NCBI GenBank assembly: GCA_022842245.1
Contig: JALHPZ010000004.1
Coordinates: 62,001 to 126,000, forward strand
Direction of reading: 5' to 3'
DNA: 64,000 nucleotides
Source of the DNA: Gemmataceae bacterium
GTDB taxonomy: Bacteria > Planctomycetota > Planctomycetia > Gemmatales > Gemmataceae
The notes under the pieces were generated by a model. That model was not told the origin of the DNA. It worked only from the letters and a program-made list of their open reading frames with translations, and searched no databases. Both the position numbers and the translations under genes were made by a program. Shown here one piece after another: positions 34,852 to 56,798 of this stretch; the first letter of the stretch is position 1, and each line of letters begins with the position of its first letter.

Positions 34852-35331
34852 GTGAAGATTCTCTTCCTCCACGGCTGGCACTCGGTTCCGGGCGGCGTCA
34901 AACCGACCTACCTGAAGGACCACGGCCACACCGTCATCAACCCGGCCCTCGATGACGACGACTTCGAGGCCGCTGTCCGCATCGCTCAGGAAGCATTCGA
35001 TCAGCATCAGCCGGCAGTCGTCGTCGGCAGTTCCCGTGGCGGCGCTATCGCCATGAACATCAACAGCAGTGATGCCAAGCTCGTGCTACTCTGTCCGGCG
35101 TGGAAGAATTGGGGAACAGCCAATACGGTCAGGCCCGACACCGTGATCCTGCACAGCAGTTCCGACGACGTGATCCCATTTGCCGACAGCGAAGAGTTGG
35201 CGGCCAAGAGCGGGGCCAAGGTGATCGAGGTCGGCAGCGATCACCGACTGGCCGACCCGGAGCCGCTGGCGGCGATGTTGAAGGCGTGCCACACCCATGT
35301 CGAGCCGATTCAAGAAGAAGATTTTTTCTGA
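34852..35331 (+). CDS. Small alpha/beta hydrolase
   Basis: 159 residues. LFLHGWHSVPGGVKPTYL is the oxyanion-hole end of an alpha/beta hydrolase, VVVGSSRGGAIAM carries the nucleophile Ser (G-x-S-x-G), HSSSDDVIPF the Asp, and GSDHRLADPEPL the His. Short hydrolases of this kind resemble the UPF0227/YqiA or RBBP9 group. GTG start at 34852 with GGAGGG 7 nt upstream. First intact gene right of the transposase remnant. Confidence 0.72.
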   Translation: MKILFLHGWHSVPGGVKPTYLKDHGHTVINPALDDDDFEAAVRIAQEAFDQHQPAVVVGSSRGGAIAMNINSSDAKLVLLCPAWKNWGTANTVRPDTVILHSSSDDVIPFADSEELAAKSGAKVIEVGSDHRLADPEPLAAMLKACHTHVEPIQEEDFF

Positions 35332-35430
35332 CAAGACGGGACCGTCCTCTGTGAGGATGCCTTCCAAAAGGGGAACCGAAGCCGGCTCAACGAGCCGCGG
35401 GAAGACCGACAGCAAGTGGAGGCGTGTCCA

Positions 35431-35760
35431 ATGCCCTTCAGGGAAACACTCGCCGCCCGCATTCGGGATGACTTGGCCCGCCTCAGGAACATCGCAGAGA
35501 AGAAGATGTTCGGCTGCATCTGCTTCTTTCACAATGGCAACCCATTCCTGGGCGTTTGGAACGACCGGCTGATCGCGCGCCTCGGTCCCGAAGAGGGCAG
35601 AGCGTCGCTGCGGGAGCCTTATGTTCGGGAATTTGATATTACCGGCAGGCCGATGCGGAATTGGGTCGCGGTCGAGTCAGCGGGCGTTGAGGACGAGACC
35701 CAACTGCTCAATTGGATCGAGCGGGCGATGAAATTCGTGAAGACGTTACCGAAGACGTGA
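35431..35760 (+). CDS. TfoX N-terminal domain protein
   Basis: 109 residues. Matches the TfoX/Sxy N-terminal domain: KKMFGCICFFHNGNPFLGVW, DRLIARLGPEEG, FDITGRPMRNWVAVE, LLNWIERAMKFVKTLP. In Gammaproteobacteria the full protein is a competence regulator, but stand-alone N-terminal domains like this are widespread and uncharacterised. GGAGG lies 8 nt before ATG 35431. Followed closely by a cupin gene. Confidence 0.8.
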   Translation: MPFRETLAARIRDDLARLRNIAEKKMFGCICFFHNGNPFLGVWNDRLIARLGPEEGRASLREPYVREFDITGRPMRNWVAVESAGVEDETQLLNWIERAMKFVKTLPKT

Positions 35761-35787
35761 ACGATCACATCGAGGGAGAGCGATCGA

Positions 35788-36264
35788 ATGATTCCACCCA
35801 CCATCAATACACCGCCCCAAGGCCGTACCGTCTCCGTTGTCGGCGATGTATATCGCTTCCTCGTCACTGGCGAAGAAACGAATGGCAAGTACGCCACCTG
35901 GGAAGCCCTCGTGCCTCCGGGCGGCGGCCCACCTCCGCACGTCCACAGTCGGGAAGAGGAAAGCTTCTACGTACTCGAAGGCGAAATCACTTTTACGATC
36001 AATGGCGAGCGGGTCGTGGCAACAGCCGGGACCTTTGCCAATATGCCGGTCGGGACACCGCACAACTTTAAGAATGAGAGTCACCGCCCGGCCAAAATGC
36101 TCATTTCCGTTGCCCCTGCCGGCCTGGAGCAGATGTTCCTTGAGGTCGGCGTGCCGTTGGCCGAAGGGACGACGACCGCAGCGCCGACGACGAAGAACGA
36201 TATCGAGAGACTCCTCGCTGCGGCTCCAAACTACGGAGTCGAGATCCAGCTTCCGGGGCATTGA
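35788..36264 (+). CDS. Cupin-domain protein
   Basis: 158 residues. Single cupin barrel: PPHVHSREEESFYVLEGE contains the His-x-His and Glu metal ligands of motif 1, and PVGTPHNFKNES the His of motif 2. The sequence resembles quercetinase/Pirin-like small cupins; substrate unknown. GGGAG 8-9 nt before ATG 35788. Starts 27 nt after the TfoX-N gene, so these small accessory genes are probably one transcript. Confidence 0.82.
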   Translation: MIPPTINTPPQGRTVSVVGDVYRFLVTGEETNGKYATWEALVPPGGGPPPHVHSREEESFYVLEGEITFTINGERVVATAGTFANMPVGTPHNFKNESHRPAKMLISVAPAGLEQMFLEVGVPLAEGTTTAAPTTKNDIERLLAAAPNYGVEIQLPGH

Positions 36265-36574
36265 ACACGAGAAGAAATCGGTATACGCACACGATCCAGG
36301 CAGAATTGATAGCTATCCGAACGGCCTACGGCGGACCTGCGGTGGTTCTGAAGTTGACGCGGTAGCCGGAAATGATCAGCCGAATGACGCGACGTGTGAA
36401 TCTCGACTTTTTACCGGCGCACGGCCCGTTGTTGGAACGAAGGACCACGGGAAGCCGCGCTCAGCGATCTATCTCGCCCATCATAACATCAAGTTGACCA
36501 AAAACGCCGTGTTTTGTAGGCTTTTCTGAACACGATGCACCTTTGATGCACCGTATTCTAGCGGGAAGGCCACG
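36265..36574. other. Gene-free stretch upstream of the integrase
   Basis: 310 bases with no supportable gene and no tRNA. The last 50 bases hold a pair of 8-bp direct repeats. This is the most likely place for the left attachment site and the integrase promoter, but no consensus can be demonstrated. Confidence 0.45.
36534..36552 (+). repeat. GATGCACC direct repeat, 11-bp period
   Basis: GATGCACC at 36534-36541 and 36545-36552, start-to-start 11 bp, i.e. on one face of the helix, 23 nt before the integrase ATG. Candidate operator or arm-type integrase/excisionase site. Confidence 0.5.
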
Positions 36575-37708
36575 ATGCGGCAACCACACCCTTGGTACTC
36601 GGAAACTCGATCTGGCGGCGGCTGGTTCGTGAAATTGAGCGGCGAACAACACTACCTCGGTAAGCATCCGGTCGGTGCTGCGAAGCCGGTGAAACGCAAT
36701 GGACGCTGGAACCCGCCGTCCGAGATCTTGGCCGAGTACCACAAGCTGATGGCCGTGCGGGACACGGCATCGAAGGCCGACTACACCTTCGACAACATCT
36801 GTGCCCTCTACCTTGCCGAATTGGAGCCGGAGAACCCGGCGTTGGCAAAGCGGTATAGGCAAATTCTCGACAAGTTCTCCGTCCACGTTTACAAGGGGCG
36901 ACGGATCGGAAAGTTCCTCGTGAACGCCGAACTCGAAGCGGTTCATTTGGAGTCGTGGGCGAAGCAGTACCCTTCCGATCAGACACAGCGGACCTACATC
37001 ACCTTCTGCAAGGCCGTCATGGAGTGGGCGGTCAAGAAGAAGAGCATCAACGTCCGCCAGAACCCGTTTGCCGAAACGAAAGTTCCGAAAGTCACGAGCC
37101 GTGCGGTCGTGATTTCCGAGGAAGAACACAAAGCTCTTCTGAAATTCTGGAACAACGACTGCTTCTGCGACTTCTTGCAGGGACTTTGGTACACGGGCGC
37201 TCGCCCCGGTGAACTGGCCAAAGTCGAGGCACGGCACTTCGAGGAAGGGTTGTGGCGACTTGATCCGACCGAACACAAGACAGGACGGGTGACGGGAAAG
37301 GATCGGCTAATCGGCGTGGCTGACGAATTGCTGGAAATCGTCAGTCGCCTCAGCAAGCTCCACCCGGAAGGCCCGATCTTCAGGAACACCTTCGGCAAGA
37401 AGTGGACGATTTCAGCCATGCACGTTCGCTTTGAAGCAGCGAGAGAGAAAGAAATCATCCGGCCAGAAGTCGTGCCGTATTCTTACCGCCACGCTTGGGC
37501 AACGCACGCCTTGGAAAACGACCGCTTGGACGTTTACGAGGTTGCCAAAGCGTTAGGCCACCGAACGATCCAGATGGTGACGCTCCACTACGATCATTCC
37601 CGAAAGAATGCGGCCCACATGAAGGACATTTTCCAACGTGCCCGGAGAGGCAAAAAGGCTAATCAGGCCGGGACCGCAAAAACTCGTAAGCGATCCCGCC
37701 CTTCTTGA
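36575..37708 (+). CDS. Tyrosine recombinase / integrase
   Basis: 377 residues. Starts with an AP2-like/arm segment (MRQPHPWYSETRSGGGWFVK), then a core-binding domain (about 70-165) and a catalytic domain with Arg210 in YTGARPGEL, Lys235 in EHKTGR, Arg305 in SYRHAWATH, His329 in ALGHRTIQMV and nucleophile Tyr339 in LHYDH. The usual first His of the HxxR box is Tyr302, a tolerated change in some integrases. Expected to catalyse site-specific integration and excision of the element. Its last 50 nt overlap the end of the converging HTH gene. Confidence 0.92.
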   Translation: MRQPHPWYSETRSGGGWFVKLSGEQHYLGKHPVGAAKPVKRNGRWNPPSEILAEYHKLMAVRDTASKADYTFDNICALYLAELEPENPALAKRYRQILDKFSVHVYKGRRIGKFLVNAELEAVHLESWAKQYPSDQTQRTYITFCKAVMEWAVKKKSINVRQNPFAETKVPKVTSRAVVISEEEHKALLKFWNNDCFCDFLQGLWYTGARPGELAKVEARHFEEGLWRLDPTEHKTGRVTGKDRLIGVADELLEIVSRLSKLHPEGPIFRNTFGKKWTISAMHVRFEAAREKEIIRPEVVPYSYRHAWATHALENDRLDVYEVAKALGHRTIQMVTLHYDHSRKNAAHMKDIFQRARRGKKANQAGTAKTRKRSRPS

Positions 37709-38249
37709 AGTCGCCCACCAGTTTGACCTTGGGCCGCTTGACCTTTACCTCTGCGATCTGCGGTTCAGGCTTCTGTACCGTCTTGGCCAGCAGGTATTCC
37801 TCGACCCAATCTTTTCGAGAGCGGAGCAACCGACCGTCTTTGATCGACTTCAGCCGCCCGTCCAGCATGAGCTTTCGAGCTTGGGAGTACGAGCAACCGA
37901 GAAGCTGACTGACCTCCTTCGTGTTCAGCATTTCGGACGATTTATCGACGTTGTTTCTGCGAGCGCCACGTCCATCAAGCCGGTCTTCGAGCCGCTGAAT
38001 TGCCGCCAGAATCTGAGAGTTGCCCGAACCCTTGAAGTCGAATTCATCGAGGTTGATCCCGAAGAAGCCAGCTATCCGGACGGGATCAACACACTGTTCG
38101 GGCAGATACGGGGGAAGGTCCGGGATGTGCTGCCGAAGCCATTCGTGTTCTTGCTGGAAGTAGGCTACGAAACCACCAAGACGCCACTTGCCGTTCGCCT
38201 GCACAACAGGACGACCTTGTTCGATCAGATTTTGCTCATCCGAATTCAT
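37659..38249 (-). CDS. Helix-turn-helix (excisionase-type) DNA-binding protein
   Basis: 196 residues. The middle carries a MerR/excisionase winged HTH (about 108-155: LNTKEVSQLLGCSYSQARKL, RLLRSRKDWVEEYLL). Flanks are uncharacterised and basic at the C-terminus. Last gene of a minus-strand run that begins with the SprT-like protein; its end overlaps the integrase end by 50 nt on the opposite strand. Could be the recombination directionality factor for the neighbouring integrase or a repressor of the operon; sequence alone does not decide. Confidence 0.75.
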   Translation of the reverse strand: MNSDEQNLIEQGRPVVQANGKWRLGGFVAYFQQEHEWLRQHIPDLPPYLPEQCVDPVRIAGFFGINLDEFDFKGSGNSQILAAIQRLEDRLDGRGARRNNVDKSSEMLNTKEVSQLLGCSYSQARKLMLDGRLKSIKDGRLLRSRKDWVEEYLLAKTVQKPEPQIAEVKVKRPKVKLVGDFKKGGIAYEFLRSRPD

Positions 38250-38334
38250 GGCTGCTTACCGAACTTCTCAACTGAGCCGATTCGCCACCGGCAATCGTGG
38301 AGTTGCAATCCGCCCATTGCAGACTGCCTACCAA

Positions 38335-38658
38335 CTATTCGGAAAGTTGTCGGGCACTCCCACTTCTGGCCGACAATTCCAGCCATTCTCCCACCATCCT
38401 GACCGCCTCTTCGAGCCAGCCTTCATTCCTCAATCCCCGGCACTGGCTGCATTCGGTGATGGGCGGGAAGACGTAATCTTCCGGCAGCATCTCGGTCGGG
38501 AGTCCGCAGTGGCGGCAGTAAAAGTACATCGGGGAACCGGCATGGAGGGTGCTGTTGTCAACCTTCTTGATGTTCGCCGCAAGTCGCCGCCGACGCCCGA
38601 ACTGCTCAATGGCCTTTTGCCTGCTGCCGCTGTAAACCACTTTGGTCTTGCCGGTCAT
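38335..38658 (-). CDS. Small zinc-ribbon protein
   Basis: 107 residues. Two CxxC pairs, YFYCRHCGLPTEMLPE and ITECSQCRGL, form a zinc ribbon; the N-terminal 40 residues are basic (SRQKAIEQFGRRRRLAANIK), so nucleic-acid binding is possible. Its ATG overlaps the stop of the E1-like gene (ATGA), so the two are translationally coupled. No named family. Only its operon places it with the ubiquitin-like genes. Confidence 0.7.
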   Translation of the reverse strand: MTGKTKVVYSGSRQKAIEQFGRRRRLAANIKKVDNSTLHAGSPMYFYCRHCGLPTEMLPEDYVFPPITECSQCRGLRNEGWLEEAVRMVGEWLELSARSGSARQLSE

Positions 38659-39518
38659 CGACGCTCCGATTTGGAAAGAAGTCGCTCCCTGACAAAGACT
38701 CTCGGCAAGTTAGCCTCGACGTAGAATTCGCAGGGGTCGAAGAAATCGTCCATCATCAGCCGCCGCAGCACCGCCAGAATCACCGCAGCCACCATGTTCA
38801 CGTTCACGATTGCCTGTGGCGCTGAGTCCGGCATCGTTTCGCCTTCGGCCAAGTCGCCCGGATTGCGGTCGGTCGGCTTGAGAAGCTCCGGGTGGTAATG
38901 GTTCGCCAGCGGCAGCGTCAGGCTCTTTCCCTTCCGCCTAACGAAGAGCTTCACGGACCCGTCGAGATAATCGCAGCCGCCAGCGATCACGGTCACGTTG
39001 GCTAGCGTCTGGACATGATCCGAAATCAACTTCAGCGTGGCATGGTTACTCGTGCAGGCCAGTACCACGTCGCCTTCAACGATGATCCGCCCGGCATTTG
39101 CTTGAACAAGATATTCGGGGACAGGGACAACTTGCCCTTCGCCTTCGATCAGGCCGCTCGCTTTGGCTTCATCGCCATCAACGGCCCGAATCTCGGCATC
39201 CAGATCGGGCAACGATTCAAGATGCCAGATCAACGGGTGAATCAGGCACTTCGCCATCTGGCCGCAACCTACGATGATGATCCGCTGCTTTCGACATGCC
39301 TTTTCTTTTTTCTTTCGGGCCGGTTCGACGAACTCGACTTTATCCCCCGGCTCCAAGACGAGGCTGGCCTTGGCCTTCTCCCCGTTCACGAAAGTTCTGG
39401 CGTTCGGGGGAATGTTGAAAGCGACGGCCAATGCCTGCCGAAGCTCTCCGACTTTTCGACCGGCAAGATCGAACTGGCCGTCACACGAGCCGAGGATGAC
39501 TTGGATGGGGTCGGGCAT
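38655..39518 (-). CDS. Ubiquitin-like (ThiS/MoaD-type) domain fused to ThiF/E1-like Rossmann protein
   Basis: 287 residues. Residues 4-66 form a beta-grasp domain of ThiS/MoaD type (VGELRQALAVAFNIP, FVNGEKAKASLVLEPGDKVE). A Lys-rich linker leads to a Rossmann domain beginning RIIIVGCGQMAKCL (GxGxxA) with the acidic VDGDEAKASG and GDVVLACTSNHATLKLISD, which parallels the DVVxDATDN region of ThiF/MoeB/E1 enzymes. The E1 arginine-finger box, CxxC zinc pairs and an obvious catalytic cysteine are not seen, so it may bind without activating. AGGAG 5 nt before ATG 39518. Sits 38 nt after the methylase fusion. Confidence 0.72.
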   Translation of the reverse strand: MPDPIQVILGSCDGQFDLAGRKVGELRQALAVAFNIPPNARTFVNGEKAKASLVLEPGDKVEFVEPARKKKEKACRKQRIIIVGCGQMAKCLIHPLIWHLESLPDLDAEIRAVDGDEAKASGLIEGEGQVVPVPEYLVQANAGRIIVEGDVVLACTSNHATLKLISDHVQTLANVTVIAGGCDYLDGSVKLFVRRKGKSLTLPLANHYHPELLKPTDRNPGDLAEGETMPDSAPQAIVNVNMVAAVILAVLRRLMMDDFFDPCEFYVEANLPRVFVRERLLSKSERR

Positions 39519-39556
39519 CGGTTCTCCTACTGTCAATCAATGCACAGGCACAACGT

Positions 39557-40663
39557 CTAACCTGCCATCAGCCCCGAAGCGGGCAGACAGTGCGGGCTGA
39601 ACCAGATTCGCTCCTTGGGACCGTTCTTGCTCCCGCCGCTTTTCCACCCGTAGACCGACCAGTTCGACGGCATTTCGTACTCGCCCTCGTAGCCACATAA
39701 GGCGATCCGAAGAAGTGGGTTGTTACCATTTTCAACCGCCCACTTCTGAACTTGATGGCCCACCCGAAGATCGTCCTTGGCATAAAGCCGGGCACTGCGT
39801 CCCGATTCCTTGGTGTAGGGTGGATCAAGAAAGATTCCGGTGATCCCGTATCGGTGTGTCATCGACTCGGTGACTGCCCGTGACCAATCACCGTGAAAGA
39901 TGCGGACGTGTTCCAGCCGCTTGGCCAATCGCCCGAATTCTTCTCGAAGCCGGTCGCCACGGAGTTGATCGAATACCAAGCGGTGGACGCCACGCCCTTC
40001 AACGCTGGGCCGTCCCCGTGAATCCTTTCGTGGAAAGCCGCCGCCGATTTGTTGGCTCACTCCCCAGACCCACCAAGCGGCAACTTTCGGATCACACCAC
40101 GCCTCTTGCTTCCGAAGCTGCTCGGTAATCGTTTCTTGCTGTTCCAGCATCCAACTTTGACGGGCATGGAAGTCGAGTTCGCTGATCGGGTAGTCAGCAG
40201 CCTTGGCCAGCTTGCGGGGATGGAACTTGAGCGCTCGCCAAAAATTCGTGAGAAGGGCGTCAATGTCGTTCACGATTTCGAGGCTACTGACACTCCACCG
40301 AGGGCGGTTGAGCAGGACAGCCCCGCCGCCGAAAAATGGCTCGACGTAATTATTCACGTCGCCAAACCGCCGCCAGATTTCGGGAGCTACTCTCGCCTTG
40401 CCCCCGAAGTATGGGAAGGGCGACCGAAGCGGTTGATCGTCGGGGATGCCTCCCTTGCGACCGAACGTATAGACGAACTCGACCGAATCACCGGGCCTTA
40501 GAACATACTGCTCAGCAACGACAACGCCATCTACGAAGGCGAACGCTTCGACCGACACGTTCAGGGCGTGTTTCAACGACTCCTGAATCTGGCCGATGGT
40601 GTGCCCAGCGGCATCAATCAGAGCATCGGCGGAACCATGAACAACTCGAATCAGACTTTGCAC
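39557..40663 (-). CDS. Ubiquitin-like domain fused to N6-adenine DNA methylase (Dam/D12 class)
   Basis: 368 residues. Residues 3-69 are the same beta-grasp domain as in the E1-like neighbour (HTIGQIQESLKHALNV, FVDGVVVAEQYVLRPGDSVE). After RKGG (69-72) comes a D12-type adenine methylase: SAM motif FPYFGGK (83-89), NYVEPFFGGGAVLLNRP, and catalytic DPPY at 280-283. Length of the methylase part is normal for Dam-like enzymes. GTG 40663 is chosen because AAGGAG lies 7 nt upstream; an ATG at 40702 would extend it. No restriction endonuclease is adjacent, so it is an orphan methylase or acts with its operon partners. Confidence 0.85.
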   Translation of the reverse strand: MQSLIRVVHGSADALIDAAGHTIGQIQESLKHALNVSVEAFAFVDGVVVAEQYVLRPGDSVEFVYTFGRKGGIPDDQPLRSPFPYFGGKARVAPEIWRRFGDVNNYVEPFFGGGAVLLNRPRWSVSSLEIVNDIDALLTNFWRALKFHPRKLAKAADYPISELDFHARQSWMLEQQETITEQLRKQEAWCDPKVAAWWVWGVSQQIGGGFPRKDSRGRPSVEGRGVHRLVFDQLRGDRLREEFGRLAKRLEHVRIFHGDWSRAVTESMTHRYGITGIFLDPPYTKESGRSARLYAKDDLRVGHQVQKWAVENGNNPLLRIALCGYEGEYEMPSNWSVYGWKSGGSKNGPKERIWFSPHCLPASGLMAG

Positions 40664-40742
40664 GGCACATCTCCTTGAAATGAAAACTGAAACGTCACGC
40701 ATGGTGTTCGCCCCGGTGGACAGGACGAACGAAGGAGATGGG

Positions 40743-40883
40743 CTACTGTTTGGGGACGTAGAAGCCCGTAACTCGATGCTGGTCGTCCTCGACTGCTTGG
40801 TTGGAGAGGTCTTTGGGGCCACAGGTCATACGGGAACCGCCTCCGCACTCCCACTTCGCAGCCGAGAGCGATACGTTCTTCAT
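40743..40883 (-). CDS. Small Cys-containing hypothetical protein
   Basis: 46 residues from ATG 40883: MKNVSLSAAKWECGGGSRMT, then CGPKDLSNQAVED and so on. Third codon positions are strongly G/C, unlike random frames here, and it fits between the SprT-like and methylase fusion genes on the same strand. Two Cys. No Shine-Dalgarno seen and no family recognised; it may be a small partner protein or simply a conserved spacer reading. Confidence 0.4.
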   Translation of the reverse strand: MKNVSLSAAKWECGGGSRMTCGPKDLSNQAVEDDQHRVTGFYVPKQ

Positions 40884-40952
40884 GCACCGCTGTTGCACGA
40901 GTTGCACATGTTGCGTGGCCGAGTGTATTTGCAAGTACAAAGCGGCCTGCAA

Positions 40953-41645
40953 CTACTGGCGATCCTCGATTGCGGCCTTGATTTCTTCGGGGTTCAGGAA
41001 CCGCTCTTGGCAGTCCTCACAGGTCACGTTGAGCGTCTCGACCTTGGCAGTGATGACCGTCAGGCACGAAGGGCAGAGGAACTTGAACTTCTTGTGCTGG
41101 GGATTCTTCGGCTTGTTCGCTTCGTTCGGCCCGGCGCTAACCCAAGGCAGGACGTACTCGGTCGGCATTCGATTGAGGGCGTCGAGAAACCGACCATTCG
41201 GGTCAATGTAATGGGTCATCCTTTGTCCGGTTGGTCGCCCTCCCGGTAGGCCGGTGTCGCTCGGAATCAGGCCGACCTCGACCATCTTCTCGGCCCATTC
41301 CCTGTTGTGGTAACAACGCCGGGGTGGAGTGCCGTGATCCTGCTGCCACTGATGCACCATCTCGTGAACCAGCGTGCCCATTACCGCTTCGAGCGTTCTG
41401 CTGAGACAATCAGGGTTGAGACTGATTTCGTGGACGGCAACATCGCCCCGACTCCATCGCTTTGGTGTGAAGAATCCGAGCGTTCCCCGATGCCGGGAGA
41501 AGTTGAGCAGACAGGGTTCAAGGGTGCCGCCGAACAATTCGGCGTTAAACCATTCCCACGCCTTCTGGTACTTCGAGAATTGCTCCAACGTGGGCGGTAC
41601 TGGCTCGGTCTGCGGCTTTCGTGGTGGTTCTCTTCGTGAGGCCAT
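40953..41645 (-). CDS. SprT-like zinc metalloprotease-domain protein
   Basis: 230 residues. SprT fold: YQKAWEWFNAELFGGTLEPC near the N-terminus, the zinc site HEMVH (94-98) in TLVHEMVHQWQQDHG, and the third His in CYHNREWAEKM, followed by a C-terminal zinc ribbon (FLCPSC..CEDCQERF). This is the domain set of SprT/Spartan proteins, whose eukaryotic member cleaves DNA-protein crosslinks; bacterial roles are unclear. GGGAG lies 6 nt before ATG 41645. First gene of the operon that carries the two ubiquitin-like fusions. Confidence 0.85.
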   Translation of the reverse strand: MASRREPPRKPQTEPVPPTLEQFSKYQKAWEWFNAELFGGTLEPCLLNFSRHRGTLGFFTPKRWSRGDVAVHEISLNPDCLSRTLEAVMGTLVHEMVHQWQQDHGTPPRRCYHNREWAEKMVEVGLIPSDTGLPGGRPTGQRMTHYIDPNGRFLDALNRMPTEYVLPWVSAGPNEANKPKNPQHKKFKFLCPSCLTVITAKVETLNVTCEDCQERFLNPEEIKAAIEDRQ

Positions 41646-42058
41646 TGGGTTCTCCCGCTCTGTAATCGGCACTGCGACAGCACCGATTCGGGAGATGCCG
41701 TTCTACTCTCACTTCTGCCGATTTTTTTTCGGCGGCGGGCATAATCGGAGGGCAGCTTGTCGGGTGTACAACCAACTGGCGTGGCTGCGAATATTTTTTC
41801 GCCATCGCTCTTGTTTTGTTGAAAAGAAGACTCTTATAGTTACATAACTTCAACGACTTCGCTTCGACTTATTCTCAACTGGCCTGCCCGCTGATCGGTA
41901 TCAGCACCTTGGCAGCCGCTCCTGCCAATCACGGCGGTTGAGCAACTCCCCAGACCGATTCCTGACCATATTGTTTTGGTTCACGGCTGGCTGCTGGGGA
42001 GCCACGACATGAAGAACTCCGCATACGCCGGGGTGATGACAAAATAAAGGATGCAAAG
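41646..42058. other. AT-richer gene-free control region with several inverted repeats
   Basis: 413 bases between the divergent SprT-like operon and the small plus-strand genes. No gene. It holds GGTGTACAACCAA (41763-41775), CTGAT..ATCAG (41891-41904), TTGGCAG/CTGCCAA (41909-41915 and 41922-41928) and CTCCCCAG/CTGGGGAG (41946-41953 and 41994-42001). The density of symmetry suggests a promoter/operator or replication-control region of the element. Confidence 0.5.
41811..41840 (+). promoter_or_regulatory. Candidate sigma-70-type promoter
   Basis: TTGTTT (41811-41816) and TATAGT (41835-41840) with an 18-bp spacer, in the AT-rich part of the control region, reading toward the small HTH genes and the primase-like gene. 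Seen by eye only. Confidence 0.35.
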
Positions 42059-42337
42059 ATGATTAGTGATACTTTGTGTGATGCCATTGACCACATCCGT
42101 GAATACCAACGGATTCTTGGACGCAGAGAAGAAGTCGATAATATTGTCGCAGTGATGGATGCCTTCGTACTTCTCTCCGCTTGCACAGATGGGTATGACG
42201 ACGAGCATCAGGCGCTGCTTGATGATCTCAGAGCCGGACTCAAAGACTTGAAGAACTCAGGTGCGATTGCTGCTCGTAAGCGGCTGCTTGACTGGGTGAA
42301 AAGAGAACGCCGGAAAAACCGCAAACGCCTGAGTTAA
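42059..42337 (+). CDS. Small hypothetical protein
   Basis: 92 residues, mostly helical: acidic front (EYQRILGRREEVDNIVAVMD, YDDEHQALLDDLRAGLKD) and a basic tail (RKRLLDWVKRERRKNRKRLS). No family recognised. AAGG stands about 9 nt before ATG 42059. First plus-strand gene after the control region, so possibly an element-specific regulator or stability factor; that is positional inference only. Confidence 0.55.
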   Translation: MISDTLCDAIDHIREYQRILGRREEVDNIVAVMDAFVLLSACTDGYDDEHQALLDDLRAGLKDLKNSGAIAARKRLLDWVKRERRKNRKRLS

Positions 42338-42453
42338 CCCGGTTATGAACCGAAGAATCTTTTTCTGGCTGTGGCCTCGCCGTCCGGGTCCACGGAATTC
42401 TTTTTCTCACCAAGAAATAAACTCAACAGCATAGATACCGAAGGAGGCCACAA

Positions 42454-42657
42454 ATGACAAAAACACAATTCATTTTGAACGAAGTGGCGAAGATCGCCGG
42501 GGTGAAGCCCCACGTCATCGCCTACGCCATCTCTGCCGGGAACCTTCCTGAACCGAAGCTCAGAATCGCTGGCAAGAGAGTTTTCTCGGCCAAGGAGGTC
42601 GAGAACATCAAGACCTATTTTGAGAACAGAAACAAGAAGGAAGACCATGACAAATGA
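42454..42657 (+). CDS. Small MerR/AlpA-like HTH protein
   Basis: 67 residues. EVAKIAGVKPHVIAYAISAG, LPEPKLRIAGKRVFSAKEVE is a compact winged HTH of the excisionase/AlpA type. GGAGG lies 6 nt upstream of ATG 42454. Its stop overlaps the next gene by 11 nt, so the two are co-translated. Likely a regulator of the element's replication or excision. Confidence 0.7.
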   Translation: MTKTQFILNEVAKIAGVKPHVIAYAISAGNLPEPKLRIAGKRVFSAKEVENIKTYFENRNKKEDHDK

Positions 42658-42919
42658 AGATGACAAGTACGTTTCGCTCGCCCACATCGCCTATCTCTAC
42701 GGCGTCCAAGTCTCAGATGTCCAGAAGTGGCTTTTCTACGTCGCCCTTTGGACGAACTATGACAAGCCGTCCGAGTCCGCTCTCAAGAACGAGCTTGCAA
42801 AGCAACTGCCCGACTCGACCTATCCCGACTATCGCTGGCATCGAGGTCGAATCTGCAAGTTGCTCGACTCGTTTGGTTATCCAAGAGTCACGAACACCGT
42901 ATTCGGTCCACCAGCCTGA
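42647..42919 (+). CDS. Small HTH-like protein, possibly frameshifted at its end
   Basis: 90 residues from ATG 42647 (AAGGA upstream). The N-terminal third has an HTH-like pattern (VSLAHIAYLYGVQVSDVQKW). The frame ends at 42919, but the next frame continues with coding-like sequence to 43022, 9 nt before a terminator; the intended product may be about 34 residues longer. Overlaps the preceding HTH gene by 11 nt. No family recognised. Confidence 0.6.
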   Translation: MTNEDDKYVSLAHIAYLYGVQVSDVQKWLFYVALWTNYDKPSESALKNELAKQLPDSTYPDYRWHRGRICKLLDSFGYPRVTNTVFGPPA

Positions 42920-43022
42920 AGGCATTCGTCAGGAAATCAAGGATGAGGATGGGTTGACCGTTGTGTGGACGGTCAACCCCGAACTGGCCCATCGGATCGT
43001 TCGCCTGCTGAACAGCGAATGA
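42915..43022 (+). other. Coding-like tail in a shifted frame
   Basis: Thirty-five codons beginning PEGIRQEIKDEDGLTVVWTV and ending RIVRLLNSE, with no start codon of their own, directly continuing the preceding gene in the +1 frame and stopping just before the terminator. Either a frameshift (mutation, sequencing error or programmed) in the gene at 42647, or chance. Confidence 0.4.
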
Positions 43023-43031
43023 CCCAAACGA

Positions 43032-43063
43032 AAACGCCGTCCCAGAAGGTCGGGACGGCGTTT
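43032..43063 (+). terminator. 12-bp perfect terminator hairpin
   Basis: AAACGCCGTCCC (43032-43043) pairs with GGGACGGCGTTT (43052-43063) around an 8-base loop, giving a 3' T run within the stem. It ends the small-gene transcript before the primase-like gene. Confidence 0.7.
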
Positions 43064-43104
43064 CGCATGTGCAAAATGAATTTTACCGAGCCAAGGCACG
43101 AACC

Positions 43105-45276
43105 ATGACTCACCTGTATTTATCCAGCAAGTCGCACATTTCGGAACGAATATCCGCAGATTCTTCCGGCCCGCAGACAAAGGCAATCAGCCTCGTCGGG
43201 GAGACGGTGTTCGACCTTTCCGACGCAGCAGCCAACGCCCCTTGTTCGTTGTCCTTCGTGGACGTGTACCATCCCGATGAAAACGAACTCGATCTTTCGG
43301 AGGAGGCCCAGCTTGGCTTTGGGATGCGCCGCTCCGAACTGAACCCGACCGAATTCCACCTTTTTTGGGAACGGTTCATCAAGTTCTGGCCTCGCAGCAC
43401 CTTTCATGTCAAGCGTAGCTACCAGACCGGATTCTGTGAAAAGAAAACGAAAAACGGGCAATCCCTGCCGCTCTTCCCCGCTCTGGCAGTGGAATACGCC
43501 GAGCGGCACCTTTGTCATGACTATTGGGGAATGTGGCAGTCGGTTCAATCTGGGCAGCACGTCCCGTCGTCCCCGATCTGGCTGGCCCTGCACATGCCCA
43601 AGAAATCCACCGTGGACGCCATCGACTTCGACGCCAAGCAACATCTTGTCGGTTACTACGGCAATGGGATCGACGCCCGGCCCCTCGTTCACCTTCCCCT
43701 TGAGCATTTCCAAACTCTGAAGCGGCTGTACGACGCTTTCCCCGGAAGGATGTGGTGCATTAGTTCGGAAACCTTGGGGATGCACGCTTGGCGGGTCCAC
43801 GAATATCCCGTCGATTCCCTGACGATTCACCATCAGAACAAGCGGGTACTGACGAACATCGGTTTACCCACAATCGAGGCTCACCCAATGCCGGGCCGAT
43901 GCTTCCGCCGTCCGTTTGGCTACGACTACCGGGTCATCACGCCGGAACGCATTCTTGATTGCTGGCTGTATCAGGTCGAGTATTTCGAGTTCGACCGCCG
44001 AACGCCCACCTTCCCGCAAATCTGCGAAGCCTTGATCGACGCCATGCTCGCCCAGCAGGAAAACTGGAATCGAGCCGACCACCGGAGCGCCACGAACGGT
44101 AAGCCAAGAGAAGTTCCCAAGAAGGTTCCGCACCTGAAAGAAATTCGGGAATGGCTGGCCGCTGGTTGCCCGCTATCGCCGGTCGTGACCGTGAGTGTCC
44201 CAGCGGCGATCCCCAGCTACCAATCCGAAACTGACCGGATCGCACAGGAGGTTTTTCTCGTTGCGTCCGGCGAGAAACTGCCAGCATCATCTCCGCTTCC
44301 GACATTTTCACCAGACGACACGATTATCAACTGGCAACCGACACCTTCGACGTTGCATTACCGCAATGGCCAATGGACGAAGGCTTTGAGAACTTGGGCC
44401 AAGATGGGACTTGTTGAGCCTGATTCCGTTGGCACCGTGATTCACGAGATGGCGAAGTGGCTCTATTGGGTCGAACTCTTCCAGAAGCCCGACTCCGAAC
44501 GGAAAAAGGAAACTTGTGCCTTGCTGACCACTTTCGTCATGGCCAAGCACAATGGTTTCGTTTCGAGGTTGTTGGTGGGAAAAGAGTCCGAAGTGAAGAA
44601 GCAGGTCAAACGATGTGTCGATTCCGCAGTCAGGCTTCAGTCCAAAGGCCGAGAACTGAGCCTCATCAAGTTTGCAAACATTCGCAAAAAGCTGGCTGAC
44701 GGAAAATACAAATATCCGTTACGGCTGGTTCCTATCCTGACCGGAGAGAAAGCCGAAGAAAAGACAACATCTTCTTCTTCCTTGTCTACTTCCTTTATGT
44801 GTATCCGGTTTGCTCCTGAAACTCTCCCCCAGAACATCATCGAGAGGATCAAGGAGAAGGCCGGTCGGAGAAGAATCCTTTCTTTCGCCGCAAAGTTGAT
44901 TTCGTTTCTGGTTGAGCATGACGGAGCAGCCTTCATTGCCAGACCCACCTATTACGAAATGCTTGGCTACGAGAATCCCACGAGATTGACCGAGTACCTC
45001 ACGGTCCTTGAAGAATCAGGGGTAATAACAAGAGGTATGTCCTACTCAGTGAAAAGAAACGGCAAGCAATGCTCGCTATTACCGTGGGTGCTTCAAGCTC
45101 TCGAAATCGACAAGCCAATGGAAGGCCCAGAATCGCTATTACAGCCCACAAATAAAATGGAAGGCAACGGAATCCATAAGCAGCCATCCGATTTAACTGA
45201 GGGCATCTGGGAGCGTGTGGAGCCTGTCTTCGTTGGAGTGAGTGGAGGTCTGACTATTAACGAGGATGCTGCCTGA
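43105..45276 (+). CDS. Large protein with archaeo-eukaryotic-primase-like motifs (replication protein candidate)
   Basis: 723 residues. The central part carries AIDFDAKQH (Asp174, Asp176) and, about 50 residues later, ISSETLGMHAWRVH (His227), the spacing and form of AEP primase motifs I (hhDhD) and II (sGxGxHxW). Near the C-terminus, RPTYYEMLGYENPTRLTEYL and VLEESGVITRG form a winged-helix-like segment. No helicase motifs. A role as replication primase/initiator of the element fits, but the third primase motif was not located with confidence. ATG 43105 has AAGG upstream; an in-frame GTG at 43069 lies against the terminator hairpin. Confidence 0.6.
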   Translation: MTHLYLSSKSHISERISADSSGPQTKAISLVGETVFDLSDAAANAPCSLSFVDVYHPDENELDLSEEAQLGFGMRRSELNPTEFHLFWERFIKFWPRSTFHVKRSYQTGFCEKKTKNGQSLPLFPALAVEYAERHLCHDYWGMWQSVQSGQHVPSSPIWLALHMPKKSTVDAIDFDAKQHLVGYYGNGIDARPLVHLPLEHFQTLKRLYDAFPGRMWCISSETLGMHAWRVHEYPVDSLTIHHQNKRVLTNIGLPTIEAHPMPGRCFRRPFGYDYRVITPERILDCWLYQVEYFEFDRRTPTFPQICEALIDAMLAQQENWNRADHRSATNGKPREVPKKVPHLKEIREWLAAGCPLSPVVTVSVPAAIPSYQSETDRIAQEVFLVASGEKLPASSPLPTFSPDDTIINWQPTPSTLHYRNGQWTKALRTWAKMGLVEPDSVGTVIHEMAKWLYWVELFQKPDSERKKETCALLTTFVMAKHNGFVSRLLVGKESEVKKQVKRCVDSAVRLQSKGRELSLIKFANIRKKLADGKYKYPLRLVPILTGEKAEEKTTSSSSLSTSFMCIRFAPETLPQNIIERIKEKAGRRRILSFAAKLISFLVEHDGAAFIARPTYYEMLGYENPTRLTEYLTVLEESGVITRGMSYSVKRNGKQCSLLPWVLQALEIDKPMEGPESLLQPTNKMEGNGIHKQPSDLTEGIWERVEPVFVGVSGGLTINEDAA

Positions 45277-45545
45277 CAGGAATGGTCGATGAGTCCGCCT
45301 ATTAAATGAGATTCACTGGCCGTCAGAGCGCTAAAGCTGAGAAATCAATGTCAGTTGCAAAAGTATGGTGTACAACCAAATGACCTCAATCGTTCCAGTA
45401 TTGTAGGAGAGTGACGGGGCGTCTGATCTGGCCTTACTTCTTGTGGAAGCATTTCCACCGGACGCACCGTTGAGAAAGCGTAACATGAGGTCTGCTGCTG
45501 CGGCCATTTGTTGCGAATGGTGAAACTCATCTCGCTATTATTTGC
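45277..45545. other. Gene-free stretch after the primase-like gene
   Basis: About 270 bases between convergent genes; no coding frame supported. It holds the second copy of GGTGTACAACCAA at 45367-45379, matching 41763-41775. Confidence 0.4.
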
Positions 45546-45698
45546 TTACCTGTCATTGCTGCTGTCGCCATTATCAACTCGATCCATCACGGTCTTCCCC
45601 TTCGCCTTGGCTGACTTCAGGATACTGGCGACGTAGGCGGCGTAATAAACGGTGGCATGTCCCGGCGTCACTTCTTCCCATTTCCCATGTGAAATCAC
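45546..45698 (-). CDS. Small hypothetical protein at the end of the lipoprotein operon
   Basis: 50 residues from GTG 45698: VISHGKWEEVTPGHATVYYA, AYVASILKSAKAKGKTVMDR, then an acidic tail. Codon use looks like its neighbours and it begins 10 nt after the stop of the membrane protein gene. The motif could form one helix. No family; could also be a fragment of a longer lost gene. Confidence 0.4.
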   Translation of the reverse strand: MISHGKWEEVTPGHATVYYAAYVASILKSAKAKGKTVMDRVDNGDSSNDR

Positions 45699-45708
45699 CC
45701 CGCAGCGG

Positions 45709-47106
45709 CTACCTGCGTTTGTGATCGTGGTCCCGGATTACGATCTTGGCAAGCGTGTACTTGTCACGAAAGTCGATTGGAATGTAGAGTGTGACCCTGC
45801 ACTTGCGGCCTTTCACAAATTCGGATGGTCCACGAAGCACAGTATCGCTTGTCTCGACACCCGCTGTGTCGTAGAGGTAGACCCGAAACTCGGTGATGTG
45901 GGTACGATCTTTACCAGCCAGCATTGAGGGCAGACCGAGGTTCGAGACATTGAACATCGCTCGGTCCAGCTTTCGCAACAGCGATGGCTCCCACGTTACG
46001 ACTGACTCCAACTCTAGTTTTTGCGGATTGAACGTCCACGGCTCGAAGATGAGGGTTTTCGCCTCATTTACGATTTGGAATGCCGGGAACTCCTTCGACT
46101 TGGGAACGTCCCAAGCAGTGACGTATTCCGCCACTGGTTCTTCCTTGGTTTGCGGTGTGGGTGCAGTCTTGCCGTCGCCACTTCCCGCCCGCTTTCCCAC
46201 CGTCGTCGTGTAAGTGGTCGCCACCCCGTTCTCCGAAAGCACCATTTGCTTGGAAGAAAGAGAGATAATCTTAAATTCCAGCGGGGTCTTGTCGGTCAGC
46301 GTGACGGAAATCGTCTTGGAGGTCCAATCGACCGCATATTTGCCTGCCTTGCCGTCACTGCGGACAAAAGCCCCATCGCCGGTGAACTCGATGGAGGGAG
46401 AACTTCCGTCCTGCGGCGTCCACTTCGCCTGTAACCTTGCGTTTTCCTGACTGTACTTCATGGCATCCCATACGGCCCCTAATCCGGCGCTTGCGGTCGA
46501 GGCGGAAGCGGCGGAAGTATCCCGCTTGTACTCGTGGAGTTGTCCTTGATCGTCCTTTACCAGCAGGGTCGTCTGGTCGCATTTGACGACTTCCCATTTC
46601 GTGGCCAGCGTGTCGCCGTCGTATAGGAGCAAATCGTTGCGCCGAGTGGCGTAGCGGTAGACCTTTCCGTTGCTCAGGATCACGTTTCCATCGAGGGTGA
46701 ACTCCAAAGTCAAGCCGCCCTCGTGAGCCGGAAGGAACTTGCCTTGAAGGGACACTTTCCGGCCCATTTCTCGAATGAATTGGATTCCCGTCCAGAGGTT
46801 CAGCGGAATAAGGATGAGAACGGTGAATCCCGCCATCGCACTTTCGCTGAAAAATGGCAGCGTCCCCAGCAGCATGAAGACGCCCAACCCAAGGTCAAGC
46901 CCGTAAAGCCAGAGCAGGCTCATGATCGGGTGACGCTGCACGACCACGTTGAAGAACACGAGGGCCAGCACGATGTTGAAGAAGATCAGTCCTCCGTCAG
47001 GCATCCACCCGAAGATGGCCGGTAGGAAGGTGACAGCGAAGATTACTGCGAGAATTCCACCGCCGATCTGAACCCATTTGTCCGCCAGAATCGCCTGAAT
47101 GTTCAT
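45709..47106 (-). CDS. Multi-spanning membrane protein of unknown function
   Basis: 465 residues. Three or four hydrophobic helices in the first 110 residues (GGGILAVIFAVTFLPAIFGW, GLIFFNIVLALVFFNVVV, FTVLILIPLNLWTGIQFI), then a soluble beta-rich portion with two Lipocalin_5-like/TIGR-type segments (LTLEFTLDGNVILSNGKVYR, IEFTGDGAFVRSDGKAGKYA) that recall planctomycete 'DUF' domains measuring a value against a model. Unknown C-terminal domain. ATG 47106 has AGGGA upstream. It starts 10 nt after the preceding lipoprotein gene. Confidence 0.65.
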   Translation of the reverse strand: MNIQAILADKWVQIGGGILAVIFAVTFLPAIFGWMPDGGLIFFNIVLALVFFNVVVQRHPIMSLLWLYGLDLGLGVFMLLGTLPFFSESAMAGFTVLILIPLNLWTGIQFIREMGRKVSLQGKFLPAHEGGLTLEFTLDGNVILSNGKVYRYATRRNDLLLYDGDTLATKWEVVKCDQTTLLVKDDQGQLHEYKRDTSAASASTASAGLGAVWDAMKYSQENARLQAKWTPQDGSSPSIEFTGDGAFVRSDGKAGKYAVDWTSKTISVTLTDKTPLEFKIISLSSKQMVLSENGVATTYTTTVGKRAGSGDGKTAPTPQTKEEPVAEYVTAWDVPKSKEFPAFQIVNEAKTLIFEPWTFNPQKLELESVVTWEPSLLRKLDRAMFNVSNLGLPSMLAGKDRTHITEFRVYLYDTAGVETSDTVLRGPSEFVKGRKCRVTLYIPIDFRDKYTLAKIVIRDHDHKRR

Positions 47107-47116
47107 GGAGTGTCCC

Positions 47117-48046
47117 TCATGGAATGCGTTTGAGCCGACCGAACAGCCATGTGAAGCCAAGGCCCGATTGCTTGGCGACGAGCAGTTCGTCGTTGGAAAG
47201 GAATTCGATTTGCCGCTGGCTCTCGCTGCCGTAGTCCCCGGCTTCGGTGATCTTCAGAGTCGAACGAGTCAGGGTGTACTTGCCGGTTTGGACCCAATCC
47301 TTCTTCAGCCCCGAGTGGAACCATGTGAAAAGAACAGTGCCACCGGCAGTGAACTCCACGGTTCCATCGACTTCCCCCTTTTCGATCTTCCACTTGCCCA
47401 CGATTGACTTGCGGGACGAAGGTGGTGAGGGAGTTCCACTCAGTTCTTTGGCCAGCAACGCATCGAGGTTGGCGGGGTCAGTGGCGGTCGGCGGAAGGTC
47501 TTGCCCGGAGCCTACGGTCAGGGCGGCGAGTTCCTCGTCCGTGATGCGAACTTTTTCTTGGTCAGCCCGGCGCTTCAGGGCTTTGGCCTGCGTGATCGCC
47601 TCATCGAGCCTCCCAATCTCAGACTGAATTCCCGCAATGTCGTGGCTGACCTTCTGCAACGCAGCCGCATACCGCTGGGCAACGGAGTTGTTCTTGAGTT
47701 CCGACGCCTTGGTAACGCCAGCCTCTCGCAGCTTCGCCACAAGATCGGCCTTTTCGTCCTCAGCCTTCTCAAGCAATGGAACCAGCCTCTCACGCCGTTC
47801 TTCGAGTTTGGCGACCTGCGGATCAATTTCGGTCAGTGCAGAATCGGTTGTTCGTGAAGGCGAAAACCCAAGTGCAGGCGGCTCTGGCGGGCCGAACTGC
47901 GGCGGCGGGGGAATAGCGGGGCCGTTCGTTGCAGCCTGTTGCTCGGTGTTGGGTGTCTTGGTCCAGCAGCCGCTGAAAGCACACAGGCCGAACATCAGGA
48001 GAGCGATAGCTCCCACTACTTGCCGCTTCTGGTGAGAAAAGCCCAT
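47117..48046 (-). CDS. Lipoprotein with coiled coil and C-terminal beta domain
   Basis: 309 residues. Signal peptide with lipobox-like end (LLMFGLCAFSGC, lipidated Cys expected), a Pro-rich segment, a coiled coil at about 85-180 (AKLEERRERLVPLLEKAEDE, HDIAGIQSEIGRLDEAITQA), then a C-terminal domain (VGKWKIEKGEVDGTVEFTAG, WVQTGKYTLTRSTLKITEAG) of the lipocalin-like type seen in the membrane protein next to it. The shared domain suggests the two work together in the envelope. ATG 48046 lies 1 nt after the preceding stop. Confidence 0.68.
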   Translation of the reverse strand: MGFSHQKRQVVGAIALLMFGLCAFSGCWTKTPNTEQQAATNGPAIPPPPQFGPPEPPALGFSPSRTTDSALTEIDPQVAKLEERRERLVPLLEKAEDEKADLVAKLREAGVTKASELKNNSVAQRYAAALQKVSHDIAGIQSEIGRLDEAITQAKALKRRADQEKVRITDEELAALTVGSGQDLPPTATDPANLDALLAKELSGTPSPPSSRKSIVGKWKIEKGEVDGTVEFTAGGTVLFTWFHSGLKKDWVQTGKYTLTRSTLKITEAGDYGSESQRQIEFLSNDELLVAKQSGLGFTWLFGRLKRIP

Positions 48047-48047
48047 G

Positions 48048-48863
48048 TCATTTCCCACCTTCCAGAATGCGGTCGATTTCGGCCAACGTGTCCTTCGGGC
48101 CTTGGGCGGCGGAAATGATGGAGTCGATGCTGTCGATTTCCTTCGTGGCGGCGGCTTCATCGAACATCTGGCCTTCTGTCGCCAGTTCCACCCGAATGTC
48201 CGCCAGCAGGTCGTTCACCTTGTCTTCGAGTTTCGCAACATTTTCACCGAGGGACGCATCGCCATCGCCCATCGCCGTCTTCGCCTCCCGCAGCGAACGC
48301 ACGGCGACCATCTGGGAGTCGATCTGGGCGATCTTGCTTTGTAGAGCGGTCAGTTGGGTGTTGAGTTCCTTCTGTTTTGCCTCGAAGCCCGTCACCACCT
48401 TCTGAAGTTCAGCCTTCGATTTCTCGTAGCTGCCGATTTCGTCGGCGTATTGCTTGCGTGCGGCAAGGAGCTTCTCGGCATTCGCCTTCAGTTGATCGGG
48501 GGTGAGCGTCTTGCCCGCCAGTTCCACCGCCTCGTTCTTGGCGAGGTATTCCCGATATTTCTTGAGCGTGGCGTCGATTTCGCCTTGCTTGGCTTGCAAC
48601 GGTTCGACCTTGCGGTTCAGTTCTTCCAGCTTGACCTGTGCCTTGATCTTGGCTTTTCCGATCCCTGCGATCCCCTGCTTCAGACCCTGCACTTGCAGGT
48701 CGATTTCCTTCCGCTTCACGTCCATGCTGCCAAGCAGGTCATCGAGTTGTTTGAGCGCCTTTTCCTTGGCGACTTGGACACGGGCTTTGGTGCCGTCGCC
48801 GCAGCCGTAGATGCCGATGCCTGCGATTGCGAGCAGGCCGATGAGCAGAAAGAGTTTCTTCAT
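48048..48863 (-). CDS. Coiled-coil putative lipoprotein
   Basis: 271 residues. N-terminal leader MKKLFLLIGLLAIAGIGIYG followed by Cys-Gly, a plausible lipoprotein signal. Almost all the rest is a long heptad-rich helix (KEKALKQLDDLLGSMDVKRK, LEELNRKVEPLQAKQGEIDA, YEKSKAELQKVVTGFEAKQK). No catalytic motif. Probably a periplasmic structural or spacer protein. Member of the four- or five-gene operon that runs from 49477 leftwards. Confidence 0.7.
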   Translation of the reverse strand: MKKLFLLIGLLAIAGIGIYGCGDGTKARVQVAKEKALKQLDDLLGSMDVKRKEIDLQVQGLKQGIAGIGKAKIKAQVKLEELNRKVEPLQAKQGEIDATLKKYREYLAKNEAVELAGKTLTPDQLKANAEKLLAARKQYADEIGSYEKSKAELQKVVTGFEAKQKELNTQLTALQSKIAQIDSQMVAVRSLREAKTAMGDGDASLGENVAKLEDKVNDLLADIRVELATEGQMFDEAAATKEIDSIDSIISAAQGPKDTLAEIDRILEGGK

Positions 48864-48907
48864 GATGGTTCTCCGGGACATTAGGAGAGCGGAAGGACTT
48901 GGTTGAG

Positions 48908-49477
48908 CTAGTTCGGGATCACGTCTTCGATGCGCACGAGCCGATTGGGAATGACTTCTCCCACGAAGCGAAGAGTTCCATCGCTGCACTTGAGTTCCCA
49001 CCGGGCCTTGCGTCCGCTGCGATTGGCGTCAACAAGATCATCAAGCTCCCCGAACACGCTCTTGTAGAGAGCGGGGGAAAGGTCCAAGGCTCCCATTCCG
49101 TAGCACTTGCCGTTCTGATTCGAGTCGTAGTAGACACATTGAGCGGGCCGCAGCATCAGCAACGCCTGAAACGCATCGGCCATCGTTCCTGCGGAGTGTT
49201 CCGCTTTTTCGAGCGAGTAAGTGCCGCCGTTCTTTGCGAGCGGCCCCTTGCCAGCACCGCCGTTGTTGATCGACAGGGTTCCTTTGCGTGATCCGCTCTT
49301 CCTGAGTCCCCCGACGTAGGACTTCTCGTCCAGATTCAGAACCTTCTGGGCGAATCCTTTGCCGCCTCCACCAGACGCCGCCCCTTTGTCGTCGTTCTTT
49401 GCCCCGGACCCACTTCCCCCGCACCCGGCAAGGAGGATCGAAAAACCGATCAGGGAAATAAGCTGCAAATGTCGCAT
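48908..49477 (-). CDS. Lipoprotein of unknown function
   Basis: 189 residues. Clear lipobox: LIGFSILLAGCGGSGSG, lipidated Cys about residue 19. A Gly/Ser/Ala-rich linker leads to a domain with two Cys in the middle (RPAQCVYYDSNQNGKCYGMG), possibly a disulfide, and the ending VGEVIPNRLVRIEDVIPN. No family recognised. GAGGG 6-7 nt before ATG 49477. First gene of the envelope operon, divergent from the ECF sigma/kinase pair. Confidence 0.72.
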   Translation of the reverse strand: MRHLQLISLIGFSILLAGCGGSGSGAKNDDKGAASGGGGKGFAQKVLNLDEKSYVGGLRKSGSRKGTLSINNGGAGKGPLAKNGGTYSLEKAEHSAGTMADAFQALLMLRPAQCVYYDSNQNGKCYGMGALDLSPALYKSVFGELDDLVDANRSGRKARWELKCSDGTLRFVGEVIPNRLVRIEDVIPN

Positions 49478-56795: not shown

Positions 56796-56798
56796 ACC

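Follow-up and report, generated by a model that had tools for sequence, protein, structure and literature searches.

What does a ubiquitin-like (UBL) domain do when it is permanently joined to a DNA methylase, and why is a second one joined to an E1-like protein encoded beside it? The question is raised by a stretch of 64,000 nucleotides from a Gemmataceae bacterium (assembly GCA_022842245.1, contig JALHPZ010000004.1, positions 62,001-126,000), referred to here as the window, in whose own coordinates all positions are given; compared loci carry L numbers and compared genomes G numbers. Its minus strand encodes a UBL domain followed by a Dam-type (D12) N6-adenine DNA methyltransferase (39557..40663, 368 amino acids) and a UBL domain followed by a degenerate ThiF/E1 domain, a pseudo-E1 (P0002; 38655..39518, 287 amino acids). 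Here, we argue tentatively that the UBL may have become a fixed docking domain of proteins that handle the DNA of planctomycete mobile elements, and that the pseudo-E1 may be its non-covalent partner. A sequence-only reading of the window had listed six minus-strand genes in a row; the positions and identities of five of them hold, as do the closely spaced, probably operonic arrangement and the UBL fusions to the methylase and to an E1-like Rossmann domain beside a SprT-like zincin, whereas the sixth gene, for a small Cys-containing protein, is doubtful.

The UBL domains of the methylase (residues 1-71, 40451..40663, minus strand, supported by AlphaFold, Foldseek and a family alignment) and of the pseudo-E1 (residues 1-70, 39309..39518, minus strand, supported by BLASTP to the methylase UBL and by alignment) are identical at 27/70 positions (38.6%), ungapped over 70 residues, with BLASTP E values of 6e-9 and 8e-9, in agreement with an earlier hand count of 25/64. 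That both N-termini are beta-grasp domains, as had been supposed, is well supported for the methylase, where AlphaFold predicts strands at residues 5-9 and 12-16, a helix at 23-34 and strands at 41-44, 47-49 and 60-64, with a predicted local distance difference test score (pLDDT) of 87-97 over residues 1-60. Foldseek matches this model to NEDD8, Mth1743, SUMO and ISG15 (E 2e-3 to 1e-2, probability 1.00), and the UBL domains of ubiquilin and UBL4A are also among its matches. The pseudo-E1 UBL was modelled at a low pLDDT of ~41-66 because the folding alignment had only E1 rows in that region, so the evidence for its beta-grasp fold is chiefly homology. For the UBLs, Pfam returns nothing but ThiS matches under its threshold and NCBIfam returns none, which means that this UBL family has no model of its own in these databases. 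No third UBL of the family was found in the window's genome above a weak level of 0.003. In a phylogeny of 33 rows, the split between fused and standalone UBLs is weakly supported (61/61). The two window UBLs do not group as sisters in the best tree; closest to them are rows from other elements, L042 for the methylase UBL and L095/L011 for the pseudo-E1 UBL. The earlier proposal that one duplication seeded both is thus not recovered, nor is it rejected when the two are constrained as sisters (approximately unbiased test, p-AU 0.146), so that on these alignments a single duplication appears neither supported nor excluded.

The E1-like domain of P0002 can be assigned, by its sequence, to the E1 family of the planctomycete operons in which free relatives of these UBLs are encoded (profile E 2e-33), and it is matched by Pfam ThiF at 5.8e-4 and 19.5 bits, under the cut-off of 28.1. 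Its core is modelled as a Rossmann adenylation fold (pLDDT 85-95 over most of it), for which the best Foldseek matches are UBA5 and ThiF (E 4e-6 to 5e-6). Seven intact E1s share a set of invariant residues, of which N45, R48 and N59-K60 are missing from P0002 through a 26-residue in-frame deletion, and D104, R109, N129 and C171 are missing as well; D104, the Mg-binding Asp, is replaced by Ser, and the GxGGxG motif reads GCGQMA, with two glycines gone. The lost Asn, Arg-Gln, Lys and Asp align with NLQRQ, K and TDN of Escherichia coli ThiF (structure 1zud), and what is retained is the Rossmann core, two glycines and a DGD motif. The tail of the UBL in the same protein reads RKKK, so that the C-terminal GxKG motif of the family is lost as well, and from the two losses together we conclude, with strong confidence for a prediction of this kind, that P0002 does not adenylate a UBL. 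The gene is an intact reading frame within a tightly spaced operon, and its stop overlaps the start of the following gene as ATGA. That gene encodes a small zinc-ribbon-like protein with a CRHC...CSQC pattern (38335..38658, minus strand, 107 amino acids, from gene calls), which has no Pfam family above cut-off.

The wider family was surveyed by profile searches of planctomycete genomes and by reading of the neighbourhoods, and consists of two kinds of proteins, standalone UBLs and UBLs fused to a larger protein. Standalone UBLs have 61-115 amino acids and end at or shortly after GxKG. Eight of the 13 compared are accompanied by E2, JAB and ThiF genes, the other five being orphans or lying at a contig end; in the L054 operon, Prok-E2_D, Prok-JAB and ThiF were confirmed by Pfam. 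These are the type 6d UBL-E2-JAB-E1 operons described by Iyer et al. 2006 (PMC1779556), and they are PRTRC-like, with weak matches to TIGR03736 (8e-9) and TIGR03737 (2e-5). Fused UBLs occur in 16/398 class-level genomes, the window's included, in genome G757 and on the viral contig L111. Many of them carry an HTH_17 or winged-helix C-terminus, and many of their genes directly adjoin a recombinase, either of the tyrosine type (L094, L096, L097, L100, L101, L102 and L125) or of the serine type (L012, L098 and L099), tested by Pfam in L094, L096, L097, L102 and L012 and by BLASTP in the remainder. A DNA methylase lies beside the fused UBL in three loci, L041 (by motif), L042 (Pfam ParB_N and N6_N4_Mtase) and its homologue L043. 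The UBL is not confined to the methylase and the E1-like protein but recurs as a module of planctomycete mobile elements, in which UBL-Dam and UBL-E1 are the fusions found only in the window. Although it is internal to the chain, GxKG is kept in 18/20 mobile fused UBLs and KG in 19/20, the window included; the methylase UBL ends in GRKGG, and the RKKK tail of P0002 is the sole one without KG. P0002 as a single query found no relatives among genome contigs, viral contigs and plasmids, and fused-UBL queries had no match in phages and plasmids.

The survey also yielded a membrane, Cys-rich protein with a UBL-like C-terminus lacking GxKG, which is present in three genomes of one genus (L055 8090-8707, L056 7921-8544 and L107 9993-10598). 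Just upstream of the E2-JAB-E1-UBL operon, a reverse-transcriptase-like gene, identified by eye, lies in two different genomes (L045 6345-7271 and L054 2357-3199). A further conserved cluster, read partly by eye, comes after the standalone UBL operon in L010, L105 and L126 and comprises an ATPase-like gene, a second JAB-like gene, a second beta-grasp-like protein of ~97 amino acids and a second, larger E1-like gene.

Do the fused UBLs have access to conjugation enzymes encoded elsewhere? The cognate JAB (threshold E 0.01) and E1 were searched in 18 genomes. Both genomes with standalone UBLs that served as controls, G093 and G602 (2/2), gave matches at E 1e-67 to 1e-101, including JAB matches of 1e-67 and 1e-95. 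By contrast, none of the 16 fused-UBL genomes, among them that of the window, contains a cognate JAB at this threshold, and none contains an intact cognate E1, the only matches besides P0002 being generic ThiF/MoeB-like proteins at 20-39 bits. With these genomes 93-100% complete, any single absence could be an assembly gap, but 0/16 is hard to explain in this way, and the two results together indicate that fused UBLs occur without this conjugation machinery; unrelated proteases or ligases may still act on them. No E2-profile match was found among the window genes. Prok-E2_D (PF14460) gave no match in the window's genome, which is weak evidence since the control genomes were equally silent, and the lack of a match to Prok_Ub (PF14454), for which the controls were silent too, is uninformative. 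The modification module envisaged in the sequence-only reading is not supported: the E1-like protein has lost catalytic residues that its closest relatives keep without exception, and searches of the genome revealed no JAB of the cognate kind, no E2_D and no intact E1.

All of the window genes described here lie in a GC-poor genomic island, of which the window holds 35289..64000 and which runs to about window coordinate 104760. In a genome of the same genus, G053, the left flank is continuous to window position 35288 and is followed within ~50 bases by sequence matching window coordinate 104760 onward; since the two flanks are joined directly there, ~69 kb of GC-poor DNA are extra in the window's genome. 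The island is marked by a drop in GC content and has two integrase genes inside the window part. The tyrosine integrase of the element (36575..37708, plus strand, Pfam Phage_integrase 1.4e-11) overlaps, tail to tail, the end of the gene for an HTH_17/excisionase-like protein, named for its helix-turn-helix (HTH) domain (37659..38249, minus strand, 196 amino acids), which has no UBL and matches HTH_17 (Pfam, 2.9e-6) and, with its C-terminus, the excise family TIGR01764 (3e-7). With an integrase, an excisionase-like gene and a region absent from the same locus in G053, the island has the features of an integrative mobile element. Direct repeats of an att site were sought by comparing 35700-36700, near the integrase, with the 104 kb around it. 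No exact repeat of >=14 bases was found, though a shorter or inexact core may be present. Related elements are found in other genomes. In L011, which is the same locus as L108 (from a metagenome-assembled genome of an uncultured Gemmataceae), an integrase ~95% identical over the first 216 residues and the HTH gene (66%) stand beside each other, and the locus bears a different fusion, a UBL with a Trans_reg_C-like winged helix; L106 has the MerR-like, small and 689-amino-acid genes in common with the window, along with two fused UBLs of its own. These shared genes show that related elements repeatedly carry UBL fusions.

The catalytic domains of the methylase and of the SprT-like zincin belong to types usual for phages or mobile elements. 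The methylase is matched by Pfam MethyltransfD12 (8.7e-12) and phrog_56 (2e-26) and has the signatures FFGGGAV (FxGxG) and DPPY; its start is best placed at the GTG at 40663, behind AAGGAG, and not at that of a longer 421-amino-acid open reading frame, and the part past the UBL, where AlphaFold confidence is low, is left uninterpreted. The SprT-like zincin (40953..41645, minus strand, 230 amino acids; Pfam SprT-like 1.6e-8, phrog_6361 3e-26) has HEMVH (HExxH) and a C-terminal zinc ribbon, CPSC/CEDC. Between the two lies the doubtful sixth gene, an open frame of 69 amino acids with Cys residues and a TTG start (40743..40952, minus strand, that is, 40952-40743), which was not called by a codon-usage gene caller and has no family matches. 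Methylase relatives of the phage type (L060-L062) function without a UBL, which is absent from L060 by BLASTP. The viral contig L111 (IMGVR_UViG_3300032160_001195) encodes a Dam protein 64% identical to the window methylase, with its N-terminus cut by the contig end, and an adjoining SprT-like protein 75% identical to that of the window. It also has an ATPase-like gene, a protein in which a UBL precedes a winged-helix-like part, a serine recombinase and a capsid-like open reading frame, and of these four all but the UBL were read by eye. A methylase gene adjoining a SprT-like gene, not far from a UBL protein, therefore exists outside the window too; the gene order differs, pseudo-E1 and zinc ribbon are missing from L111, and the gene order highlighted earlier is conserved to this extent and does not recur in full. 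No SprT-like relative was found by BLASTP in the other fused-UBL loci. PADLOC returned type II or orphan methyltransferase matches and one weak HTH match only, and a defence-system label for the locus was rejected on this basis.

The reading that we favour, to which we give a probability of roughly 40%, is that the genes travel as cargo on an integrative planctomycete element. A UBL related to the free, putative modifier proteins of the planctomycete UBL-E2-JAB-E1 operon has been fused permanently to an intact-looking Dam-type methylase and, in a second protein, to an E1 that descends from the same operon family and is catalytically dead; the role of the UBL would have shifted from that of a covalent tag to that of a fixed docking domain for the DNA-handling proteins of the element. 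The pseudo-E1, whose ancestor handled this UBL family, has probably kept a hold on such UBLs and would act as a non-covalent adaptor, binding the methylase through its UBL and placing or regulating adenine methylation of element or host DNA, with the SprT-like zincin as a putative methylase-linked accessory. What leads us to this reading is the homology of the UBLs, the catalytic loss, the 0/16 result for JAB, the recurrence beside recombinases and methylases, the absence of the island from G053 and the L111 neighbourhood. Several points weigh against it: the pair of UBL-Dam and UBL-pseudo-E1 is seen in one genome only, where the two may be mere neighbours among variable cargo; the other fusions have kept the GxKG tail, for which a plain docking domain would have no need, which keeps tail recognition or proteolytic release alive as an alternative; and the other ThiF/MoeB-like E1s of the genome (20-39 bits) might act on UBL tails. 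A broader version, in which planctomycete elements would have evolved their own system of permanent UBL labels that act as addresses for DNA-binding, recombination and methylation proteins and are read by dedicated partners, with control of DNA methylation or recombination but without conjugation, and in which a dead, captured E1 would bind the methylase UBL here, is a possibility that we put forward with more reserve.

How far do other explanations account for the same observations? The UBLs could be neutral passengers, or folding or oligomerisation domains, the methylase an orphan or anti-restriction gene protecting the element and the UBL-pseudo-E1 a leftover, unconnected with it, from a UBL operon that has decayed. 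The phage type of the methylase, its UBL-free relatives, the PADLOC matches, an ArdC-type antirestriction gene in the same island and the degraded active site of the pseudo-E1 all agree with this. We nevertheless find it doubtful, because P0002 is an intact frame of 287 amino acids in a tightly spaced operon with an ATGA overlap, and because two adjacent UBLs of one family and ~20 independent-looking fusions to DNA-handling proteins exceed what passengers would predict. Cleavage is a rather less likely alternative, in which a protease, either a host enzyme or the SprT-like zincin, would cut after GxKG and leave a free UBL and a shortened methylase, in the way that ribosomal-protein fusions release ubiquitin. 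In its favour, GxKG, with which standalone UBLs end, is retained inside so many mobile fusions, and a SprT-like gene accompanies the methylase in two elements, the window and L111; yet the fused-UBL genomes have no cognate JAB and the other fused-UBL loci no SprT-like relative, P0002 is without a cleavage site and the genome has no known user of a released UBL.

Bacterial UBL conjugation participates in phage defence (PMC10097602), and fused UBLs on mobile carriers could therefore be mimics that capture or poison host conjugation of the Bil, CBASS or 6d type directed against invaders, with the pseudo-E1, which descends from exactly this operon family, as a dominant-negative decoy. Since fused-UBL genomes are without the cognate operon, any target would have to lie in other hosts, and the UBLs are mostly on regulators adjoining integrases, not on abundant virion or effector proteins, so that we consider this very improbable. 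We think it still more improbable that a UBL, once activated by the E1-like protein, is attached to the methylase or to other targets in an active modification or signalling module: the protein retains its Rossmann core with two glycines and the DGD motif, its fold matches are active E1s and ThiF proteins with an N-terminal UBL have been described (PMC1779556), but the adenylation residues are gone, its own UBL has no C-terminal glycine motif, and the genome has neither a cognate JAB nor a Prok-E2_D match, the latter in a search with silent controls.

The locus differs from each of the systems that it resembles. With type 6d/PRTRC-like operons (Prok-E2_D, Prok-JAB; TIGR03736 PRTRC_ThiF, TIGR03737 PRTRC_B) the window shares the UBL family and the E1 family, but it has no E2, JAB or free UBL, its E1 is dead and its UBLs are N-terminally fused to the methylase and pseudo-E1. 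In the N-terminal UBL fusion of Campylobacter ThiF (PMC1779556), a UBL likewise precedes a ThiF-like Rossmann domain; in contrast to it, the window genes are not thiamine genes, the catalytic residues are lost and the closest family is the planctomycete operon E1. CBASS Cap2/Cap3 and Bil (BilABCD) follow a similar bacterial UBL/E1/JAB logic amid mobile-element conflict (PMC10097602, PMC11354881), whereas the window has no active E1, E2, JAB or CD-NTase. Compared with phage orphan Dam-type methyltransferases (phrog_56) and SprT-like zincins (phrog_6361), both catalytic domains are unexceptional, and it is the UBL that distinguishes the methylase from phage Dam relatives such as that of L060. 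In eukaryotes, ubiquilin-type proteins carry permanently fused UBL domains, and there too the UBL is an integral, non-conjugated domain; the family described here differs in being bacterial, in sitting on mobile-element DNA-handling proteins and in its still conserved C-terminal GxKG.

Iyer et al. 2006 (PMC1779556) name no HTH, integrase, recombinase, ParB or methylase protein as a partner of a UBL, nothing on a UBL domain combined with an excisionase was found in the open-access literature, and no description of fused UBLs on mobile-element DNA-handling proteins as a class was found in the literature searched. The fused UBLs are a variant of bacterial UBL proteins and not members of conjugation operons. 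As bacterial UBL proteins have so far been studied mainly as sulfur carriers or covalent modifiers, a family that some genomes encode as a free, putative modifier along with all of its machinery and others as a fixed mobile-element domain without it, here together with a pseudo-E1, would give a concrete bacterial case in which a covalent tag has turned into a docking domain, as is known for the UBL-domain proteins of eukaryotes. It makes testable whether UBL recognition of the E1 type was reused to control DNA methylation or excision.

The island has further genes of note. Two small HTH-like genes on the plus strand (42454-42657, MerR_1-like, Pfam MerR_1 6.7e-6; and 42647-42919) have relatives in L098, L099, L103 and L106. 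They are followed by a gene for a 689-amino-acid protein without known function (43207..45276, plus strand), which has no Pfam, PHROG or PDB match, is related by BLASTP to a protein in L106 (E 7e-72) and has more distant relatives in L042, L093 and L103. It represents a family of 640-690 amino acids in UBL-carrying elements (window 43207-45276, L106 8524-10440, L042 4251-6293, L093 6206-8248 and L103 7449-9452). Two stretches close to the left end of the island, window positions 34858-35288 and 35449-36264, are repeated on the same strand past the window end and nearer the right end of the island, at 91089-91519 (85% identical) and 94039-94854 (77%), respectively. An ArdC-type antirestriction gene, 55% identical to one in L011, and then a RuvB-like AAA gene occupy 52332-54234, and two paralogous small proteins, 31% identical (E 1e-22), are encoded at 59748-60167 and 60716-61156.

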